Shown here: piece after piece, positions 5,519 to 18,168 of the stretch
Position numbering within the stretch: the stretch's first letter is position 1
Layout of the letters: each line of letters begins with the position of its first letter
Virus record (IMG/VR): IMGVR_UViG_3300031873_000707
Coordinates: 1 to 20,532 of that record
Reading direction: 5' to 3' (one strand)
Source of the DNA: a virus
Length of the DNA stretch: 20,532 bases
The notes under the pieces: model-generated
What the model was told of the DNA's origin: nothing
The model's database searches: none
What the model saw: the letters and a program-made list of their open reading frames with translations, nothing else
Translations under genes and position numbers: made by a program

Positions 5519-5965
5519 GTGTGGATCCAATCAAGCATGCAGCGGAACTCCATAGAGGCGCGGGTCGACCTAACCTACGGTTATCTCGCAGCCGACATGA
5601 TCTCGCATCGCATAGAGTCGCTGCGCATCGACTCTGAGAACCCCCTCCTCCTGCAGACCTCCAAGAATCTCACTTCCTCAAGTGGCCTGGCCTACAACTT
5701 CAAGCAGTTCAAGGGGCATTCTCCAGAGTATCTTGTTGTCCAGAACAATGCCACAACTGGAACAGTTACAGTCGAATGGAACAACGGCACGGGGGACCTC
5801 GTAACCACAATCCCGGCAAACGGAGGTCTCGCGGTCATTCCCGATCCGCATAGAATCCTCGCAGGTGGTGGCGTCGAGTCGCCGTACCTTGGCGAGGTTG
5901 TGGTGATCAAAGCAATCGGCGGAACCGCGCTCGTTGATATATCGTTTTGGGGGTATTCGTCGTGA
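5519..5965 (+). CDS. Beta-rich virion protein, paralogue 1 (TerL-portal interval)
   Basis: A 148-residue protein with a GTG start five bases after AGGGA. The C-terminal two thirds look like a beta-sandwich: LVVQNNATTGTVTVEWNN, then TIPANGGLAVIPDPHRI and a last strand ending VDISFWGYSS. The downstream neighbour has the same order of elements, so the two are probable paralogues. Small proteins of this sort between terminase and portal or next to the capsid gene are often head decoration or head-fibre proteins. That role is inferred from position and composition only. The stop overlaps the next start by four bases (GTGA). Confidence 0.72.
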   Translation: MWIQSSMQRNSIEARVDLTYGYLAADMISHRIESLRIDSENPLLLQTSKNLTSSSGLAYNFKQFKGHSPEYLVVQNNATTGTVTVEWNNGTGDLVTTIPANGGLAVIPDPHRILAGGGVESPYLGEVVVIKAIGGTALVDISFWGYSS

Positions 5966-6354
5966 GCTTCACAGCGGGGTTGAAGGTCGTCTATCGGAAC
6001 AAGGACGAGGAGGTCGTCACGCAGAGCAATTTCTCGCCTTACTCGAACGCTGCGGCTTACTATTACGACTACCCGATCGTGATTGGTGCTTCCACCAGCC
6101 AAACTATATTTTCCTATAATTCGCCCTTTAACCTAATCTTCCCGACCGAGACTTCTGATCTCTTGTTGGTCAAGAACAAAGGGCAAGGCGCAGTCAGGCT
6201 TCAGTATATGAATCTCGCCGGCGCGACCGCTGACATCGAGATCAAGAGCGGCAAGCTTCTTTTGGTTCAGGACGTCGACGTGATCTATGAAATCGTGCTC
6301 GTGAATGCGGGAGCATATTCAAACGAGGTAGAGATATTTCACGCGGGGCACTGA
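5962..6354 (+). CDS. Beta-rich virion protein, paralogue 2 (TerL-portal interval)
   Basis: A 130-residue protein starting at the GTG of the GTGA overlap, with GGGGG eight bases upstream. Elements aligned with its neighbour are LLLVKNKGQGAVRLQYMN against LVVQNNATTGTVTVEWNN, and IKSGKLLLVQDVDVIYEI against IPANGGLAVIPDPHRI. Both begin with a polar N-terminal segment and end in a beta strand. The N-terminal region has a Tyr-rich stretch (AAAYYYDYPIVIG). It ends directly against the portal ATG. It is probably a head surface or stabilising protein; the exact function is not known. Confidence 0.72.
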   Translation: MSFTAGLKVVYRNKDEEVVTQSNFSPYSNAAAYYYDYPIVIGASTSQTIFSYNSPFNLIFPTETSDLLLVKNKGQGAVRLQYMNLAGATADIEIKSGKLLLVQDVDVIYEIVLVNAGAYSNEVEIFHAGH

Positions 6355-9218: not shown

Positions 9219-10505
9219 ATGGGCACCAACGCAAGCATCTCCGCTCTCGATGCGGCGATGAAGGTGATCTACCATCAGTACCGCGACCTGACCTACAAAG
9301 ACCGCCCGTTCCTGGGGACCCTGCCGAAGAAGAAGGTCGTCGGCAAACGCAACGACTACCCGATCAAGTACGGCAACGGAACGACTGGCGCCGCGTTGTT
9401 CTCGGCGGCTCAGACGAACTACGCGCCGCCGAAGTACGAGGCCTGGGAGAGCACCCCCGCCCAGGACTACGCGATCGGCCGGATCGAAGGCAAGGCAGTT
9501 CGCGCCGGAGTCGCCGGGGGCATGGTCGAGGGCCTGGCAGACTCGGTCAGGGCTTGCGCGGATGCGATCCTCGCTCACCTGTCGGACTCGATCTCGATCC
9601 GCTGCTTCCGCCCCGCGAGCGGCTGGCGTGCTCAGATCCTGAGCGTCGACGCGACCGCCAACACGATCACCTTGGTGAATCCGTCCGAAAGCGCCTGCTT
9701 CGAAGTCGGGATGGTTTGTGTCGCTGGGGCCGGTGGTGGCTCGAAGAACTCAGGGTCGGCCATGACGACCATACGGGCCGACTTCTATGCGTCCGGGACC
9801 AACACGGCAGTCATTACAGGCGTCAATCGGAACACCGGGGTGCTCACGTTCAACGACATCTACGCCTCTACGACCGTCGTGCCCTATGATTACCTCGCCC
9901 GCTCGGGAGATCAGTATGCGAGCGCCAACCTCTGCATGTCGGGTCTCTTGGAGTGGTGCCCGGCGTCTGCGCCCTCGTCCGCGGCATTCTTCGGGGTCGA
10001 TCGGACTGCCGACTCGATGCTCGGTGGAACCCGCATCGACGCCTCGGCCTATGGCTCGATCGAGGAGGCGATCATCGACGGTTGCTCCCTCGCCGGAGAG
10101 ATGGGCGGAGCGCCCAAGAACGTCGTGATGGGCTGGCGCAAGTGGACCGCGTTCATCAAAGAGATCGGCTCGAAGACGAGCTACGAGCGCGTCCAGCTGC
10201 AGGCAATCAACGCGGCAGGGAAAGCCATCGCCGATATCGGCTACAAGGCTGTTGCTGTTCACACCAACACCGGCGACGTCAACGTGTTCGCGGATCGCCA
10301 CTGCCCGCACGACTACTGCTGGGCCTACGATCCGGCCGACTTCGTTCTCGAGAGCCTCGGGGACCTGGTCGGGTTCGACACCTTCGACAACGGGTCGACC
10401 TGGAAGCAAAGGTCCGACGCGGACGCCTTCGAGGCTCGCGGCCTGAGCTACCCGCAGCTCGTGAACATCGCCCCAGGGAACGGCTGCATCATCACCCTGC
10501 CCTAA
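9219..10505 (+). CDS. Major capsid protein (HK97 fold)
   Basis: A 428-residue protein after the scaffold gene, with an AAGGGAG ribosome binding site. The N-terminal part (ALDAAMKVIYHQYRDLTYKD, then PFLGTLPKKKVVGKRNDYPI) matches the N-arm and E-loop region of podovirus-type HK97-fold capsid proteins. Residues about 135-235 look like an inserted beta domain (QILSVDATANTITLVNPSES, later GVNRNTGVLTFNDIYA and DYLARSGDQY). The C-terminal half has P-domain and A-domain features (AIIDGCSLAGEMGGAPKNVV, MGWRKWTAFI, and the closing YPQLVNIAPGNGCIITLP). It is rich in cysteine, including DRHCPHDYCW. The gene ends with a double stop TAATAA. It forms the icosahedral shell with the scaffold and portal. Confidence 0.92.
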   Translation: MGTNASISALDAAMKVIYHQYRDLTYKDRPFLGTLPKKKVVGKRNDYPIKYGNGTTGAALFSAAQTNYAPPKYEAWESTPAQDYAIGRIEGKAVRAGVAGGMVEGLADSVRACADAILAHLSDSISIRCFRPASGWRAQILSVDATANTITLVNPSESACFEVGMVCVAGAGGGSKNSGSAMTTIRADFYASGTNTAVITGVNRNTGVLTFNDIYASTTVVPYDYLARSGDQYASANLCMSGLLEWCPASAPSSAAFFGVDRTADSMLGGTRIDASAYGSIEEAIIDGCSLAGEMGGAPKNVVMGWRKWTAFIKEIGSKTSYERVQLQAINAAGKAIADIGYKAVAVHTNTGDVNVFADRHCPHDYCWAYDPADFVLESLGDLVGFDTFDNGSTWKQRSDADAFEARGLSYPQLVNIAPGNGCIITLP

Positions 10506-10524: not shown

Positions 10525-11196
10525 ATGCCACCGATCCTCAGAGGCACGGTCAAGACCCGAGACCCTGGACTGAGGGTCGTCGCAGGATCCTTTGTTCCTG
10601 GAGTCTCAAGCGGTCTCTCAACCTACATCCTGACGCTTGCCAGCGGGACCCCGGCGAACCGCCTGGTCATCACGGCCAAGGCGCCATTCGTCGGGGCTGC
10701 TGGCGACGCGCTCACTTTCGACACAGAAGAGGGCGGCGCTCTCTCGGCTGTCTACGCGGCTCCGAAAACAACTCTGACTTACGTCGCGGCGTCAACCACG
10801 TTGGCGCAGGCGGTCACCGCGATCAATGCGATCAGCGGCGGCGCGGTGACCGCTTCGGCGATTGGAACCGGCACGACCACTTTCACGTTAACGAGCGACC
10901 TGATCACCCCCACCGCTCTCAGTGGAGGCGGGACGCAAAAGGGCAGAGGCTTCAGCGTGGCCCAGACCGCGGCCGGGACCTACCGCGTGACCCTTGACGA
11001 CATTCTGCAGGCCGTCCATCTGGTCAACGTCTCGGTTCAGACGGCAGTCGCGAAGGATCTGAGGGCGCAGGTCGGCCCCATCGTCCAGGCTTCGAAGTAC
11101 TTCGATATTTTCACGTTGGCCGGTTCAACGCTCACAGACGGAGCCTCGACGGACCGGATCAGCTTCATCGTTACGGGCCGGGCGATCACCCGGTAG
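10525..11196 (+). CDS. Beta-rich virion protein with inserted domain, paralogue A
   Basis: A 223-residue protein directly after the capsid gene (ATG with TTGAGG upstream). The backbone reads VVAGSFVPG, later KGRGFSVAQTAAGTYRVTLD, RAQVGPIVQ and DRISFIVTGR. The next gene has the same elements in the same order. A stretch of about 110 residues (approximately 28-138) rich in Ala, Thr and Gly interrupts the backbone. It runs from ANRLVITAKAPFVGAAGDAL to TLAQAVTAINAISGGAV and ends TALSGG, resembling a domain that recurs in phage structural proteins. A probable capsid decoration or head-fibre protein, judged by position; the exact role is unknown. Confidence 0.78.
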   Translation: MPPILRGTVKTRDPGLRVVAGSFVPGVSSGLSTYILTLASGTPANRLVITAKAPFVGAAGDALTFDTEEGGALSAVYAAPKTTLTYVAASTTLAQAVTAINAISGGAVTASAIGTGTTTFTLTSDLITPTALSGGGTQKGRGFSVAQTAAGTYRVTLDDILQAVHLVNVSVQTAVAKDLRAQVGPIVQASKYFDIFTLAGSTLTDGASTDRISFIVTGRAITR

Positions 11197-11208
11197 AAGG
11201 GATTCGAC

Positions 11209-12066
11209 ATGAGTATCGGACAGACCTACGATACACACGCGCTGGAAGCTGGTCTCGTCTTCGTCTATGGCTCTTTTGCTCCGAATGGGACCAGTGCAAT
11301 CGACGCGACAAGTATCCGCGGGAAAGGGTTTTCGGTCGAGAGAGTCGGGGTTGGGATGTACCTCCTGACCTTCGACAAATATCCAGGGTTCCGCGCTTTC
11401 ACGGCGTCGCTGCAGCTTGCCGCGGCTGCTGACAACTTCATCCAGGTCGGGCCTTACACGAGCGCCGTCTCGAAGGTCGTGAACACCTATACCAACGCGA
11501 CGGAGAAGGTCAACAAGAGCTCTCACGGGCTCCTGGATGGGATGAAGGTGCGGCTGAGCGCGACGGAAGGCGCTCCAGTCGTCTGTACCTTTACCAACGC
11601 GACGGAGAAGGTCAACAAGAGCTCTCACGGCCTGCTCGATGGAGATCGCGTGCGGTTCCGGAACGTAGGCGGCGCTCTGCCTACGGGATTGTCGGACGAG
11701 AAGATCTACTGGGTCGTCAACAAGGGGACGAACGACTTCGAGGTCTCCCTGACCGTGGGCGGCGCCGCCGTGACGATCAGTGACGACGGGACCGGGACGA
11801 ACTACTACTATCCGCAAGCGGCCCTGCCGACCGGTCTCAGCGAAGGACCCTACTACGTGGTCAACAAGGGGACGAACGACTTCGAGGTCTCGCTGACCGC
11901 TGGTGGTGCGGCGGTCACGTTCTCGAGCGATGGCGTCGGGACCCTGACCTACTACGTAGAGCCGGGGACCTTGCTGCTCTACAGCTGGACTTCGGCCCTT
12001 GCTGACATCGCAGCCAACGCGAACAACCGGATCAACTTCTGCGCGGTCTTCGACAGCTTGACCTAA
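11209..12066 (+). CDS. Beta-rich virion protein with HGL/YVVN modules, paralogue B
   Basis: A 285-residue protein with AAGGGA six bases before its ATG. It shares the backbone of the preceding gene: VYGSFAPNG, IRGKGFSVERVGVGMYLLTF, FIQVGPYTSA and, after the insert, LYSWTSALADIAANANNRIN plus FCAVFDSLT. About 150 residues between the QVGP and LYSW segments are built from repeat modules. A first half is NATEKVNKSSHGLLDG, seen twice, and a second half YVVNKGTNDFEVSLT with GGAAVT is also seen twice. The arrangement is first half, first half plus second half, second half. Repeats are near-identical at the DNA level. It is probably on the virion surface as a decoration or fibre protein; the modules may bind glycans or host structures, which is inference. 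Confidence 0.8.
   Translation: MSIGQTYDTHALEAGLVFVYGSFAPNGTSAIDATSIRGKGFSVERVGVGMYLLTFDKYPGFRAFTASLQLAAAADNFIQVGPYTSAVSKVVNTYTNATEKVNKSSHGLLDGMKVRLSATEGAPVVCTFTNATEKVNKSSHGLLDGDRVRFRNVGGALPTGLSDEKIYWVVNKGTNDFEVSLTVGGAAVTISDDGTGTNYYYPQAALPTGLSEGPYYVVNKGTNDFEVSLTAGGAAVTFSSDGVGTLTYYVEPGTLLLYSWTSALADIAANANNRINFCAVFDSLT
11485..11630 (+). repeat. Direct repeat A (44 bp, two copies)
   Basis: Copies at 11485-11528 and 11587-11630 are identical except for one base, offset by 102 bases (34 codons). Each encodes the segment TNATEKVNKSSHG. Synonymous positions are conserved too, which indicates recent duplication or gene conversion rather than selection on the protein. Confidence 0.9.
11716..11891 (+). 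repeat. Direct repeat B (32 bp, two copies)
   Basis: Copies at 11716-11747 and 11860-11891 are identical over 32 bases, offset by 144 bases (48 codons). Each encodes VNKGTNDFEVS. Together with repeat A this shows that halves of one module were duplicated separately inside the gene. Confidence 0.9.
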
Positions 12067-12085: not shown

Positions 12086-12766
12086 ATGTCTGCCAGAATC
12101 ACGCTTACGACTCTGAAGGCGCTCATCAAAGACCAAGCAGACATGGCCAGCTCCACTTTTTTGACCGCCGGCTCGATGGATACGACCCTCACCTACTGGA
12201 TCAACTGCGCCGTCGCGGAGCTCCACGACCTTCTCGTCCAGTCGTTCGAGGACTACTTCGTCAAGAAAACGACCATCGCCCTCTCGGGCGCCGAGACATA
12301 TGTGCTCCCGGAGAACCTGCTTAGGGTCCTCAAGGTCCTCAGAAGCGATGGAGGGACCGTCACCGAGGTCAGGCGGGCTACCTTCTCGGACTTCACGAGC
12401 CTCATGAGTGAGGGCTCCTCTGCGGTCTACACGCCCATGTACCGGATCTCGGGCTCCGAGATCTACATCCTGCCGAGCGACACGACTGGATCGATCATCC
12501 TTTTCTACGTGCCCCAGGCGGTCAACCTGGCTCTGCCGGATGACGAACTCCACTACAACGTCCCTGACGGGTGGGCCGAGTTCGTCGTCGCGGACGTGGT
12601 CGCCCGGGCCCTCGAGAAGGAAGAGTCGGACCCGTCACCGGCACTCAGGCGGAAGGAGATGGCGAGGTCCAGGATCGTCACCATGGCGGCCGGCCGGGAC
12701 TCCTCCGACCCAAAGCGGCAGATCGACAGGAACAGCCAAAGGGACAACCTCTGGACCAGGGGGTGA
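12086..12766 (+). CDS. Head-tail adaptor (portal-adaptor) protein
   Basis: A 226-residue protein with GGGAGGGG before its ATG. The pattern fits the adaptor family found after capsid genes in podovirus-like phages (functional counterparts are T7 gp11 and P22 gp4). It has an N-terminal helical segment with FLTAGSMDTTLTYWINCAVA and ELHDLLVQSFEDYF. A beta region follows with YVLPENLLRVLKVLRSDGG, then YRISGSEIYILPSD and ILFYVPQAVNLALPDDE. It ends in a C-terminal helical, charged tail. It would form a ring below the portal that receives the nozzle protein. The assignment rests on pattern and gene order. Confidence 0.72.
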   Translation: MSARITLTTLKALIKDQADMASSTFLTAGSMDTTLTYWINCAVAELHDLLVQSFEDYFVKKTTIALSGAETYVLPENLLRVLKVLRSDGGTVTEVRRATFSDFTSLMSEGSSAVYTPMYRISGSEIYILPSDTTGSIILFYVPQAVNLALPDDELHYNVPDGWAEFVVADVVARALEKEESDPSPALRRKEMARSRIVTMAAGRDSSDPKRQIDRNSQRDNLWTRG

Positions 12767-13106: not shown

Positions 13107-16100
13107 ATGAGAAAATATCCCAGCACGAAGTCCCGGGATGCACTTTCCGAGCAGATCGTTCGGGTGCCGCTCGGGGGCTCTCTTGATCAGGAGACGGATC
13201 CTCTCCTGGTTCAACCGGGGCAAGTCGCGACGGCCGAGAACATCGTCTATGACAAGACCGGAAGGGTCTCGAAGGACCCGGGCATCCAGAATCTTCCCTA
13301 CAAGTTCCAGTTCGCGAGCGACCTGGGATGGTCATTCGTCAGTGTGAATCTCATTTCAGAATTCAAGGACTCTCTTCTCGTCGCTGGACGAGTGGTAGAC
13401 CAGAGAGGATACAACGACCCCGAGACGCATACGAGACTCTGCCAGTACGAGGAGCTCCATCAGGCCTTCGATCCTTCGAGACTAGGAAGTAACAGTTCTC
13501 GGGACAACACTTGGTCGCCCGTCGGACAGGATAATATATCGTATTCTCAGTCGAACTCAAATATAGCATGGCCAGGGATGGCCATCACTGCATCTTACTG
13601 TTGGTACTCCTGCGTCGGCCCATTGACCAACAGGGTCAGACTCGTGGTTATCGAGAAAGCCACTGAGACCAGATTTCAGACAGACCTCACCCTGACCGGG
13701 GCAGTCAAGACGAGACTTCTGGAAGTTGGCTCGAACGTCATTCTCTTGTGCGCAACAGCCACCAAGCTCTGGGGCATGTATTTCTCGAAGACGGATCCTA
13801 CGACTGCATCTGCCTGGATTGACCTGGGGCTCGTGAGCGTCGGCGGGTGGGGGACACCCGCTTCTCCGCAGGAAGGTTGGGAGTGCTGCGCATACAACAA
13901 CCAGTTGATCATCTCGAGGATAGACAACGCGACAAGCCAGGCTCGGTTTGATCTCTACTCGAGTGAACTTAAGGTCTGGGTAGACTGTACCGGGACCCAG
14001 TCGACGAACAAAATCGGCAAGACAAGCCATGGTCTCTCAGAGGGAGATGAGATCAGCTTCCGGTCAATCACCGGAGGGTCAGGGATAAACACGGGGACGA
14101 GTTATTACGTAGTGAATCCCGGCACAAACGACTTCAAGATCACGCCGAGTTCGTCATGGGAGGCCTGCATCGGGATAGCTTCAACAGACAGAATAAATAA
14201 AAGCACCTACAGTGTACTCAACGATGGTGATATAGTATTTTTCCGCTCACTCGTTGGGGGGTCGGGGGTAAGTGCAGGGACGGCCTACTATGTCATCAAT
14301 CGCAGGGATCTATGGTGGGTGAACTGCACTGGTACAGCTTCCAGCGACCTGATCAACAAAACCAGCCATGGTCTCATCGCGGGAGATGAAGTGGTCTTCA
14401 GAAATCTCATCGGCGGGGCCGGGATAGCTGAACTGAGCAAATACTATGTGGTCAATGCGCTGACCGACACCTTTCAGATCTCTCTGACCCCCGGAGGAGC
14501 TCCCGTAGACTTCACGACTAACATGACGTCTGGGCAATACGCAAAAGGCTCATACATCTACGGAGACTTTCAGATCTCGCTGACTCTCGGTGGGTCTGCC
14601 GTAAACTTCACGACTGACATAAGTTCTGGCGAGTATGTCAAGATCTTGGACTTCACAACAGATATGACGGCTGGCCAGTACTCCAGAGGCGCGGCTCTTG
14701 TCGCAGTCCCAATCAGGACCCTGATCATCGCCGAGACGGTGGTTGATGCCTTCGTCGCAGTCTTTCCTATAGAGTTCTCGCCCTACGATCTCGGAGCATG
14801 CTGGAGGAATGGGAACAACATCAGGTTTGCGAAGCTGGTGAACGATCTGACCGCAGTCAGGACGAGCTATCCTGTTACTCTTTATACGGTCGGAGCAACC
14901 GACATCGTCCACACGATCACCGGCTCGACGGACCTGCAGGACTACTATGCGAACGGCGGCGGCAACACCCAGGACTACTCGGTCAGAATTATCGTCTCTC
15001 GGGAGATGACGGTTGTAACGCCATCGGCCCTGACCGCGCAAGTGAAAGTAATCGACCAGGCAGTGATCAACGTCCCCAGGACGATCTACCTGCCTACTTC
15101 TATATATCACTATATAATCCTGTCGAACGCATCGACCATCAACGGCCGAATGTACCTGATAATCGGGAACGAGCACAGCGGCGCATCTCTGGTGACGACT
15201 GGCCGGAACAAAACCCAGCTGATACCCGTTGCCTGGTTTGCGCCAGAAGAGGTTGCCGCACAAAAGAAGAACCTGAGCCAGATCTATTATGACTCCTCGG
15301 CAGACAAACTATACGCCACCTACAATCGGAACGACTACCAGAACGATTTCTTCGCGACTGGCAAGATCTTCACCATGTCGGCTCACTGCAGGGGACTCCA
15401 GTTAGACAACGGCTACGTGGCAGGGGGAGGATTCATCGCGACCTTTGATGGATGTCCGGTAGATTGCGGATACTGGCATCCACCGGAGATCAAAGAGATC
15501 ACTTCCCCGACTGGAGGGGCACTCTCGGGCGGGACCTACAGTTACCGTGCGACCTACGAGTGGATCGACGGGAATGGCGAGATTCATATCTCGCAGCCCA
15601 GCAGCCCTGTTGACTTGACGGCGACCATGAACGACAAGGGCTATCTCTGGGTTAGACCGATCTCCCTAGGGTCTGAATACCGGAATAACAACGTCAAAAT
15701 AGTTATCTATCGGAACACCCAAACGACTCCGACGATCTACTTCCGGGTCGCGGAGGCGTACAATTCCGTTTACTCGTCGGGGGTCACGATCAGTGACACG
15801 ATGAGCGACATAACAGCCGAGTCGCAGCCGCAGCTCTACACGACAGGCGGTGTTTTCTCGAACACCACGCCACCACCTGCGAGGATTCTATTCAGGCACC
15901 AGGGGCGCATCTGGGCGATCAATGACGACGACAAGAAGGAGATCTGGCCCTCGAAGCCGAAGATCGCCGGGGTTGCTCCAGAGTTCTGCCCTGAGATGAC
16001 CATTCGGATGCCGGAGGATATCTTAGGATTCGGGAGTCAGGGGGACAACCTCTTGGCGTTCGGAAGGAAGAGGATCTACTCAATCCTAGGCGATGGGCCG

Positions 16101-17105
16101 AACTCCATCGGGGTCGGCTCCTGGCCTGAGCCTAGGCCGATTTCCTTCGACACCGGCACCAACAACGAGAAGTCGGTGAAGCAAACCGACTACGGAACAG
16201 TCTTTCAAAACGATCGGGGCATATTCGTAATCGGATCGCAGTCCAACATCCAACTCATCAGCGACGCGGTCACCACCGAACTCGGGACCAAGCAGATCGT
16301 CGCGGTTGTCTCGGAACTCGGGAGACAGGCAGTCAAGATATTCCTCGAGGGGGTGGACTCGAAGGTCCTCATCTACGACTTCAAGCACCAGCGATGGTCA
16401 ATCGCTTCTCTTGGCGCCGGGGTCTCAGTCGGAACCGCCGGGAACTACGGGCTGAACACGGTCCATTTCTCGACGGTCGACAGGAAGCTCAGGAAGACTG
16501 GGACTCTCTATAAGCTGGTCCAAGAGAAGATGACGATGAAGGTCGTCAGCCCCTGGATCAACTTACAAGGCCTTGCGACCTTCAAGCGTCTTTGGTGGAT
16601 AGATATCATCGGAGAATGGAAGGCGCAGCACAATCTAGTCGTCAAGATATCTCAAGACTACGTTTCGACCTATGACCAAACAGTCACGTTTGATTGCTCC
16701 TCGAGCGTCAGTCCATATCTGCTGAGAATCAAGCCGGCTCGGCAGAAGTGCATGGCGATCAAGGTCGAGGTATATGACGACGAGGTCTGGCTTGCCTGTA
16801 CCGGGACCCAGTCGACGAACAAGATCAACAGGGATGCGCACGGGCTCACGGCCGGAGAGACCGTCTCATTCCGCTTGCTTGTGGGCGGCACGGGGCTTAC
16901 CGAGGTGACGACTTATTACGTTGTAAACCCGACCACAAACGACTTTCAAGTCTCTCTGTCGTCGGGCGGGACGGCGGTCAACTTCACGACAGACATGACT
17001 TCAGGCGAGTTCTACAAGAGAGGGAACTCCTGCACTTTGACCGGACTTGAGTTACACTTGGCAACGAAGAACTTTGCCGCGAGAACTTACGGGAAGGACG
17101 GCTAA
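13107..17105 (+). CDS. Tail nozzle/hub protein with repeat modules (1332 aa)
   Basis: The N-terminus (VRVPLGGSLDQETDPLLVQP followed by GQVATAENIVYDKTGRV and DPG) is the signature of podovirus nozzle/hub proteins such as T7 gp12 and P22 gp10, which close the tail below the adaptor. Beta-strand-rich sequence throughout and the closing section (MAIKVEVYD, LTGLELHLATKNFAARTYGK) fit this. At 1332 residues it is far longer than T7 gp12 (about 794). Part of the excess is repeat modules: at about residues 290-530 (C294-TGTQSTN, then three HGL/YYVVN-type modules and several partial ones) and again at about 1230-1308. The ATG follows GAGGGA, which overlaps the stop of the previous gene. An alternative is a fused nozzle plus receptor-binding module, since no separate spike is in the window. 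Confidence 0.82.
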   Translation: MRKYPSTKSRDALSEQIVRVPLGGSLDQETDPLLVQPGQVATAENIVYDKTGRVSKDPGIQNLPYKFQFASDLGWSFVSVNLISEFKDSLLVAGRVVDQRGYNDPETHTRLCQYEELHQAFDPSRLGSNSSRDNTWSPVGQDNISYSQSNSNIAWPGMAITASYCWYSCVGPLTNRVRLVVIEKATETRFQTDLTLTGAVKTRLLEVGSNVILLCATATKLWGMYFSKTDPTTASAWIDLGLVSVGGWGTPASPQEGWECCAYNNQLIISRIDNATSQARFDLYSSELKVWVDCTGTQSTNKIGKTSHGLSEGDEISFRSITGGSGINTGTSYYVVNPGTNDFKITPSSSWEACIGIASTDRINKSTYSVLNDGDIVFFRSLVGGSGVSAGTAYYVINRRDLWWVNCTGTASSDLINKTSHGLIAGDEVVFRNLIGGAGIAELSKYYVVNALTDTFQISLTPGGAPVDFTTNMTSGQYAKGSYIYGDFQISLTLGGSAVNFTTDISSGEYVKILDFTTDMTAGQYSRGAALVAVPIRTLIIAETVVDAFVAVFPIEFSPYDLGACWRNGNNIRFAKLVNDLTAVRTSYPVTLYTVGATDIVHTITGSTDLQDYYANGGGNTQDYSVRIIVSREMTVVTPSALTAQVKVIDQAVINVPRTIYLPTSIYHYIILSNASTINGRMYLIIGNEHSGASLVTTGRNKTQLIPVAWFAPEEVAAQKKNLSQIYYDSSADKLYATYNRNDYQNDFFATGKIFTMSAHCRGLQLDNGYVAGGGFIATFDGCPVDCGYWHPPEIKEITSPTGGALSGGTYSYRATYEWIDGNGEIHISQPSSPVDLTATMNDKGYLWVRPISLGSEYRNNNVKIVIYRNTQTTPTIYFRVAEAYNSVYSSGVTISDTMSDITAESQPQLYTTGGVFSNTTPPPARILFRHQGRIWAINDDDKKEIWPSKPKIAGVAPEFCPEMTIRMPEDILGFGSQGDNLLAFGRKRIYSILGDGPNSIGVGSWPEPRPISFDTGTNNEKSVKQTDYGTVFQNDRGIFVIGSQSNIQLISDAVTTELGTKQIVAVVSELGRQAVKIFLEGVDSKVLIYDFKHQRWSIASLGAGVSVGTAGNYGLNTVHFSTVDRKLRKTGTLYKLVQEKMTMKVVSPWINLQGLATFKRLWWIDIIGEWKAQHNLVVKISQDYVSTYDQTVTFDCSSSVSPYLLRIKPARQKCMAIKVEVYDDEVWLACTGTQSTNKINRDAHGLTAGETVSFRLLVGGTGLTEVTTYYVVNPTTNDFQVSLSSGGTAVNFTTDMTSGEFYKRGNSCTLTGLELHLATKNFAARTYGKDG
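13985..14700 (+). repeat. Block of HGL/YYVVN/FTTDMTSG repeat modules in nozzle gene
   Basis: Encodes tandem versions of one module. A first half has TGTQSTNKIGKTSHGLSEGD-type sequence. A centre reads SYYVVNPGTNDF. A second half has GGxxVxFTTDMTSGxY-type sequence. Three first halves begin near 13985, 14165 and 14327. Complete or partial second halves appear near 14485, 14565 and 14650, the last two cut short. The middle module has lost the HGL core (STYSVLNDGD) and its second half. This patchwork suggests repeated unequal exchange within the gene. Confidence 0.82.
16796..17026 (+). repeat. Distal copy of the nozzle repeat module
   Basis: A complete module near the C-terminus of the nozzle gene. 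Its first 27 bases (16796-16822) are identical to 13985-14011, about 2.8 kb upstream and in the same frame. It then encodes AHGLTAGETVSF, TTYYVVNPTTNDFQVS and VNFTTDMTSGEF. It is the cleanest single example of the module in the gene. Confidence 0.85.
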
Positions 17106-17106
17106 A

Positions 17107-18168
17107 ATGGGCGAACCTATCGGCGGAGTGCCCAGGGACCCCAACCCTAGGCCGGGAATGAGGGAAGGACCGTGGCGCGGCGAGAACGACCCGCCGCCGC
17201 CGCCTCGAGAGGTATCTGACGAAGAATACCAGCGGTTGATGCGGGAGGAGTTCAGAAACAGTGCAATTGGAAAGAAATTCAGGGGAGAACTCGGCAAAGT
17301 AGGTGGGTTTCCTAATCAAGTATTCGACGAGGGACAGTTTGCCATAGACGAGGCGAGACGGATCCAGGAGGAAACCGACAAGCGGACCCGTGAACTCGAG
17401 ACGCAGCTCTGGAGCCAGGCAAGAGGGGAAGAGACTCCATCGCAGAAACAATTCGCAGAGCAACTACAGCAAACCCAACGCCTACAAAAGGGAATGGTAG
17501 GGTCGGTCCGAGGGCTCTCGGGCGAAAGGGCCAGGCGTTACGGCCAAGATTTCGGATCCAGACTCGAGACAGAAGGCAGGCCTCGTCTCGCATCTATTCG
17601 CGCTACCGAGATGCAAGACGCAGAAGAGGCTCTCACTAGGTTCCAAGGCCAACGAGACGCGCTGGCCTTGCAGTATCTCCAAATGGCGTATTCCGCAGAG
17701 GATGCCAAAAGAATGGCAGACCTGGAATACCAAAATATGATTCAAGCCTTCCGCGATCAGAAGTTGGCTGAATACAAGCAAAGAATAGACAGAGAAATGG
17801 GAATTTTCGGAGGCATCACTGGGGCGGTAGGCAGGATCGCCGCCATGTTCAGCGATAAAAATACCAAGCAAAACGTAAGTGGCGTGAAATCGGGAGAAGT
17901 GAACGACTTCCTTGGCGCGCTAAAAGGCTACACATACGAGTACAAAGACGAGTTCAAGAAGCACCCGCAGGCCAACGACTCAAAGAACACTGGGATCATG
18001 GCACAGGACCTCGAAAAAAGTTCAATCGGAAGGACAATAATCAAAGAGGTTGACGTAAACGGCAGGAAGATAAAAGCAGTCGATAACGGGCGGTTCGTAC
18101 ACGCTCTAGCCGCCGCCGTAGCCGACATGAACAATAGGCTGAATAAGCTGAAGCGAGCAGGAGCCTAA
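17107..18168 (+). CDS. Helical virion protein with C-terminal S74 chaperone domain
   Basis: A 353-residue protein; ATG at 17107 with GGAAGGA upstream. The N-terminus is Pro/Gly-rich (residues 1-35), and residues about 40-235 are charged, Gln/Glu/Arg-rich helices likely to form coiled coils. A short Gly/Ala/Ile segment (IFGGITGAVGRIAAMF) leads into a C-terminal domain that begins SDKNTKQNV at S249. It continues NDFLGALKGYTYEYKD, GIMAQDLEK, and a final helix AAAVADMNNRLNKLKR. This is the intramolecular chaperone of endosialidase type (peptidase S74), with the Ser and the Lys five residues later preserved. Family knowledge predicts self-cleavage before S249, releasing about 105 residues after trimerisation. 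It could be an internal/ejection protein or a fibre-like protein; the helical body favours the former. Confidence 0.82.
   Translation: MGEPIGGVPRDPNPRPGMREGPWRGENDPPPPPREVSDEEYQRLMREEFRNSAIGKKFRGELGKVGGFPNQVFDEGQFAIDEARRIQEETDKRTRELETQLWSQARGEETPSQKQFAEQLQQTQRLQKGMVGSVRGLSGERARRYGQDFGSRLETEGRPRLASIRATEMQDAEEALTRFQGQRDALALQYLQMAYSAEDAKRMADLEYQNMIQAFRDQKLAEYKQRIDREMGIFGGITGAVGRIAAMFSDKNTKQNVSGVKSGEVNDFLGALKGYTYEYKDEFKKHPQANDSKNTGIMAQDLEKSSIGRTIIKEVDVNGRKIKAVDNGRFVHALAAAVADMNNRLNKLKRAGA

Follow-up and report, generated by a model that had tools for sequence, protein, structure and literature searches.

A phage locus with tandem paralogous genes carrying different loop inserts, one of them a beta module nested within its own copy

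Results

Structural gene cluster of the window

The stretch of DNA analyzed here (the window) is an IMG/VR virus record of 20,532 bases from an uncultured phage. It contains a tailed-phage structural cluster comprising terminase, capsid protein, two small proteins (P1 and P2), an SU10-type adaptor and a large tail protein, with the following genes at its center:

9219..10502, plus strand: major capsid protein, upstream of P1 (SU10_MCP, E 0.0019, below cut-off)
10525..11193, plus strand: P1, 223 aa, a backbone whose loop 1 holds an insert
11209..12063, plus strand: P2, 285 aa, a backbone as in P1 with an insert in loop 2
12086..12763, plus strand: SU10-type adaptor, downstream of P2 (PF24175, 51.9 bits, cut-off 27)
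13107..17102, plus strand: large putative tail protein, 1332 aa (E1_FCCH, 34.8 bits, cut-off 29.5)

The adaptor passes the threshold of its family, and the capsid protein stays under that of the SU10 major capsid family (18.2 bits, cut-off 24.1); a profile of the window capsid protein against the PDB returned unrelated enzymes, all at E 0.066 or worse. The capsid protein is identical in 365 of 428 residues (85%) to that of another IMG/VR contig, 3300004481_001263 (hereafter, L010). The tail assignment is suggested by PHROG matches of a module described below and by gene order; a profile of the tail proteins had no match in the PDB. In the product of 17047-18165, aa 269-324 match an intramolecular chaperone domain (Peptidase_S74, 31.5 bits, cut-off 22), with ~50 further residues after it. 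Between terminase and portal, two small ORFs (5519-5965 and 5947-6354) adjoin each other, and their alignment score is not significant (35 vs. a shuffle mean of 28.7, with 227 of 2000 shuffles reaching 35).

P1 and P2 have a common backbone

An earlier note on this DNA described two genes with a common backbone and different inserts in different loops, and this description is borne out: both open reading frames lie where it had placed them, and the motifs follow one another in the order that it listed (GSFVP, GRGFSV, GTYRVT, QVGP and RISF in P1; GSFAP, GKGFSV, GMYLLT, QVGP and RINF in P2). Full-length BLASTP aligns the two proteins with E = 1e-6 (37% over 62 aa). With the inserts cut out, their local alignment score is 93, as compared to a mean of 28.3 (sd 5.0) for shuffled sequences, none of which (0/2000) reaches this value; the cut was made by eye and chosen after looking, which is why two tests of homology on uncut sequences were added. 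At full length the score is 80, reached by one of the 2000 shuffles. Cross-pair BLASTP between P1 and P2 orthologs of the window and L010 gave E-values of 1e-6, 1e-9, 7e-7 and 0.008, the weakest pair being the two L010 proteins. In a search of 7112 ORFs from the collected loci with a profile built from both P1 orthologs, both P2 proteins rank directly after the P1s (E 1.2e-9 and 2.3e-5), followed by a match at E 0.088, with no other ORF below 0.05. With the inserts taken out first, an alignment of the four backbones has 130 columns, 20 of them invariant. Taken together, these alignments show that P1 and P2 are paralogs of common ancestry with different inserts at two loops.

The backbone had no match above cut-off in Pfam, PHROG or NCBIfam, and the best match of its profile in the PDB was unrelated (E 1.4). 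Of the models made for the superposition of backbones proposed in the earlier note, that of P1, built from two sequences, has a mean pLDDT of 50.6, and the AlphaFold2 model of P2 is confident in the insert only, with a backbone pLDDT below 70. Because the 31 rows of the P2 alignment were module rows only, the backbone in this model is a single-sequence guess, and the fold searches made with it test, in effect, the module only.

Filled and empty insertion sites in a relative

The insert of P1 follows GSFVPG at about aa 31-138:

10615..10938, plus strand: P1 insert, GAAGD...LSGG-type, ~108 aa, shared with the L010 ortholog

A survey of relatives for other inserts at both sites, proposed in the earlier note, returned a single contig with the backbone in viral_contigs, L010, in which the P2 ortholog (~121 aa) has no insert and the P1 ortholog has a longer one, with a further domain of ~105–120 aa within it. 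In viral_contigs, this extra domain (~105 aa, L010:8993-9307) was found in no contig other than L010. A homology between the inner and outer inserts of L010 P1 was considered and is not supported, as local alignment gave scores of 29 and 33, within the range of shuffled sequences (reached by 1692 and 1217 of 2000), and a GAAGN/GVTGD-like motif is all that they have in common. Since these two inserts are not demonstrably related, self-nesting is claimed below for the module of P2 and the tail protein only, and not for P1.

Further searches for backbone relatives were negative in genome_contigs (0 of 152 pattern matches). Among 50,697 phage records, nothing similar was found to P1, the L010 P1 and P2 orthologs or the tail protein, and the four matches of P2 run through its insert module only. 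Small ORFs with a GTGDYTITF motif in three other loci (L023, L031 and L042) show weak backbone likeness (E 0.7-1.5). As L010 is the sole backbone relative found, gain of the P2 insert in the window vs. its loss in L010 can be told apart by parsimony only.

The P2 insert is a module within a module

The insert of P2 occupies about aa 90-250 and starts ~8 residues past QVGP. An insert was correctly anticipated there by the earlier note, which had seen HGL/YVVN modules; these are, however, not modules in a row, and the arrangement found is one module interrupted by another:

11476..11577, plus strand: module A, first part (A1); HMM positions 1-27, 16.8 bits; DNA repeat with the start of B
11578..11814, plus strand: module B, complete, inside A; HMM positions 1-64, 80.3 bits; AlphaFold2 pLDDT 90-97 in blocks
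11815..11958, plus strand: module A, second part (A2); HMM positions 17-64, 48.3 bits; DNA repeat with the end of B

Starting from six window and L010 modules, four search rounds yielded the module HMM; the match of P2 at 80 bits is, thus, one to an HMM built with P2 included. At the DNA level, A1 and the start of B form a direct repeat of 65 nt at 88% identity, and A2 and the end of B another of 93 nt at 77%; the copies are spaced by 102 nt in the first repeat and by 144 nt in the second. Judged from these matches, the P2 insert is a small beta module with a second copy of itself in one of its loops, A1-[B]-A2. By eye, the junctions show neither a target-site duplication nor a motif at the module ends, for which reason no transposition machinery is proposed here.

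A three-deep nest in the tail protein

The large tail protein contains the same family of modules in a still deeper arrangement, together with an intact copy:

13977..14156, plus strand: tail module A, first part; HMM 1-53, 68.9 bits
14157..14315, plus strand: tail module B, first part; HMM 2-42, 32.7 bits
14316..14561, plus strand: tail module C, complete and innermost, with a short linker; HMM 1-63, 83.8 bits
14562..14645, plus strand: tail module B, second part; HMM 46-63, 16.6 bits; DNA repeat
14646..14690, plus strand: tail module A, last 15 residues, closing the outermost layer; no HMM match, placed by BLOSUM62 score
16788..17021, plus strand: tail module D, close to the C-terminus and intact; also conserved in L010

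The 15-residue end of module A scores 62 (BLOSUM62) against the ends of intact modules, as compared to a maximum of 23 among 970 other windows of the protein. By the order and complementarity of these parts, the region reads as a nest three modules deep, A1-B1-[C]-B2-A2. All three interrupted modules (A of P2, A and B of the tail protein) consist of two complementary parts that add up to approximately one module, and they are broken at three different loops. A formal nesting rule (partial start, full module and partial end within 20 residues), written after both cases had been seen, selects 2 of 177 module-bearing ORFs among the 7112 ORFs, both of them in the window. Several contigs occur in this ORF set two times with differing locus ids; the loci that are duplicates of the window or of L010 (L001, L002, L003, L006, L011 and L091) were excluded from it. 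Chimeric assembly was considered as a source of the nests and appears unlikely, as the repeated parts have 60-88% DNA identity, and are not identical, and both frames are open.

The L010 tail protein has a single module in this region, ~30 residues downstream of the site of the triple nest, and the C-terminal module is kept in both phages.

Origin and age of the nested modules

A tree was built from 78 modules, eight of them from the window and L010 and the others kept if nearly complete, matching at E 1e-6 or better and at most 85% identical to any module already included. Modules A and B of P2 are sisters (75% identity, support 0.85) that group with modules of unrelated proteins in two other phages, L004 and L005 (61-68% identity, support 0.89); their identity to the modules of the tail protein of their own phage is only 33-45%. 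The tail modules of the window and L010 form one clade (support 0.94), in which tail module C pairs, again with support 0.94, with the module found at the different tail site in L010. This topology fits an acquisition of the P2 module from outside, followed by local copying into itself, and a separate expansion in the tail gene.

The proportions of synonymous differences (pS) are 0.38 for A1/B1 and 0.47 for A2/B2, and those of nonsynonymous differences (pN) are 0.06 and 0.21 (22 and 33 codons, i.e., small samples). The A/B divergence is at or below that of the capsid genes of the window and L010 (pS 0.47), which suggests that the P2 duplication is approximately as old as the split of the two phages or younger, and has been constrained since. 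Similar pS along with lower pN in both halves fits one event followed by constraint.

The same repeats allow for another origin of the P2 arrangement, by two independent tandem duplications of half-modules instead of an insertion. Direct repeats are what tandem duplication would leave, and the DNA identity of the two halves differs (88% vs. 77%), although their synonymous divergence is similar within these small samples, and the three-deep tail nest, with its complementary parts and different break points, would require several coincidences. We consider half-module duplication rather unlikely and prefer the insertion of a complete module copy.

The same module in capsid proteins of other phages

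In two other loci (L007 and L008), the FCCH-like module is an in-frame insert in an SU10-type major capsid protein (L007:8070-8291). The capsid protein of phage Gaia, aligned directly, is without the module and has clean flanks. Among the phage records, each of the best 20 of 57 matches of the capsid query is in two pieces covering 77-83%, Gaia alone having been aligned. Within IMG/VR, the module is present in the capsid protein of 79 of 80 relatives kept (the best 80 of 140; loci L094-L173), with L169 as the one without it; this list was ordered by likeness to a query that carries the module and is, thus, biased to presence. Module residues are conserved across diverse phages.

These observations bear on the possibility that the modules are ancestral linkers or spacers, neutrally lost and scrambled, with no display function. 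The presence of the insert varies between close relatives, which makes it dispensable, and such decay would be in line with a confidently folding module B inside a less confident outer copy. It is at odds with the excess of synonymous over nonsynonymous changes per site in the duplicated parts, with the conservation of residues across diverse phages and with the retention of the module in nearly all of the capsid-protein relatives (in a list that favors presence). We regard this neutral reading as unlikely and retain stepwise gain of constrained domains as the preferred reading.

Module family and fold

The tail protein passes the gathering score of the E1_FCCH family (PF16190; 34.8 vs. 29.5 bits), and P2 falls short of it (20.7 vs. 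29.5 bits, E 0.00046). Phage relatives of this family occur in three PHROGs (4711, 7765 and 9370; tail fibre), and the PHROG matches cover the module only. It is the module family that these entries have in common with P2 and the tail protein; nesting was not seen in the other module-bearing ORFs examined (the two exceptions in 177 being those of the window).

In the AlphaFold2 model of P2, blocks of the inner module have pLDDT values of 90-97, as compared to mostly 54-74 in the outer module. Over module B, structural matches were obtained with E1 FCCH domains (highest Z 7.3), a tail-tube chain of phage T1 (7.3) and phage endosialidases (6.9 and 6.0). The best E1 FCCH match (9b5c_A 179-259) has Z 7.3 over 74 residues with an rmsd of 2.7, and values of Z below 8 may reflect a common arrangement. 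A Foldseek search of the P2 model against the PDB yielded nothing at E 0.001 or better (best E 0.011), and 32 matches reach 0.001 in a viral library, several of them named tail fibre or baseplate proteins.

The T1 match runs from module B (11578-11814, model residues 119-205) to residues 14-97 of chain 9l0f_G (Z 7.3), and a further match is to 9jlf_E of phage FCWL1 (Z 7.1), hinting, at the level of predicted structure, at an FCCH-like barrel built into tail-tube proteins.

The likeness to the beta-barrel of endosialidases (4hiz, 3ju4; PF12195) extends to a weak profile match to 4hiz (E 0.054), and the tail protein scores 11.9 bits with PF12195, far under the cut-off of 35. This barrel is a phage surface domain, as the present module may also be; no enzyme domain was recognized in the window proteins. 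In a study of K1F, the barrel is described as a sialic-acid binding site and a hotspot of host discrimination (PMC12632334). By analogy, the present modules could possibly bind glycans. P2 also scores below cut-off with Ig-like Pfam families (Big_11, 11.9 bits; Peptidase_C25_C, 21.3 bits; cut-off 25 for both).

Discussion

Proposed virion location and origin of the inserts

The reading that we favor, with a probability of roughly 60%, is that the tandem paralogs P1 and P2 are most likely of a head decoration or head-fibre-like type, with a backbone of ~115–125 residues that gained loop-inserted domains stepwise. Decoration protein genes commonly sit directly after the capsid gene. A location of P1 and P2 on the head is suggested by the gene order of the window, i.e., capsid protein, P1, P2 and SU10-type adaptor. 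The same order could also place them elsewhere, as neck or tail completion proteins with the inserts at the tail vertex, since both genes directly precede the adaptor and the module-bearing tail protein; they directly follow the capsid gene, however, and no database family matches either backbone. We consider this neck or tail location possible, while leaning towards the head. The display platform loaded with different domains that was originally envisaged for these genes agrees with the common backbone and with the interchangeable inserts (P2 empty and P1 with a longer insert in L010), and its surface display would follow from a location deduced from gene order.

With P1 and P2 as decoration-like paralogs, the backbone would tolerate in-frame insertion of domains at two loops, the modules likely being gained by illegitimate or short-homology recombination. 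In a first step a module would enter the backbone, and in a second step a copy of it would enter its own loop. The modules would be small beta domains with chain ends close together, and for this reason the host domain would still fold after each plug-in. The chain would then push outward like beads, with both ends returning to the platform, so that each nested insertion would lengthen an outward ornament on the virion. Such ornaments may be adhesive or shielding, possibly carbohydrate-binding like the endosialidase barrel.

A bolder version would have the FCCH-like module as a mobile in-frame unit traveling across the capsid, decoration and tail genes of different, unrelated phages, with a preference for its own loops and with repeated self-insertion building nested, outward rods. 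We regard this version as improbable.

Relation to known systems

Promiscuous Ig-like domains on phage virion proteins are reported to have been described by Fraser et al. in 2006. These are likewise small beta domains scattered over unrelated virion proteins and present or absent between relatives; they belong, however, to another domain family, and it is the present module that goes into loops and into itself. More generally, domains common to otherwise unrelated phage proteins and their ongoing shuffling were described by Smug et al. (2023, PMC10684548). As far as the accessible portion of that paper extends, the general process is as here, and a nesting of one module family within itself is not described; the word "nested" is absent from its main text. 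A literature search over titles and abstract starts, with few subscription journals, found no description of FCCH-type modules, or of modules nested in their own kind, in phage virion proteins. Promiscuous virion domains and domain shuffling are already known; a module that nests in itself step by step, with orthologs whose site is empty, represents an unusual variant of them.

Implications

Mosaicism of phage virions is known, and its steps are seldom visible; here, both filled and empty states of orthologous sites are seen, and two related phages show one- and three-module states of one tail region, in addition to a module within its own copy. If the proposed scheme is true, the loading, transfer and lengthening of surface domains would follow a concrete route that lends itself to testing, and nature would already offer insertion-tolerant sites in two places, a small virion protein and a capsid protein of the SU10 type. 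If the mobile-module version were also to hold, it would amount to a stepwise, protein-level way to lengthen virion ornaments.
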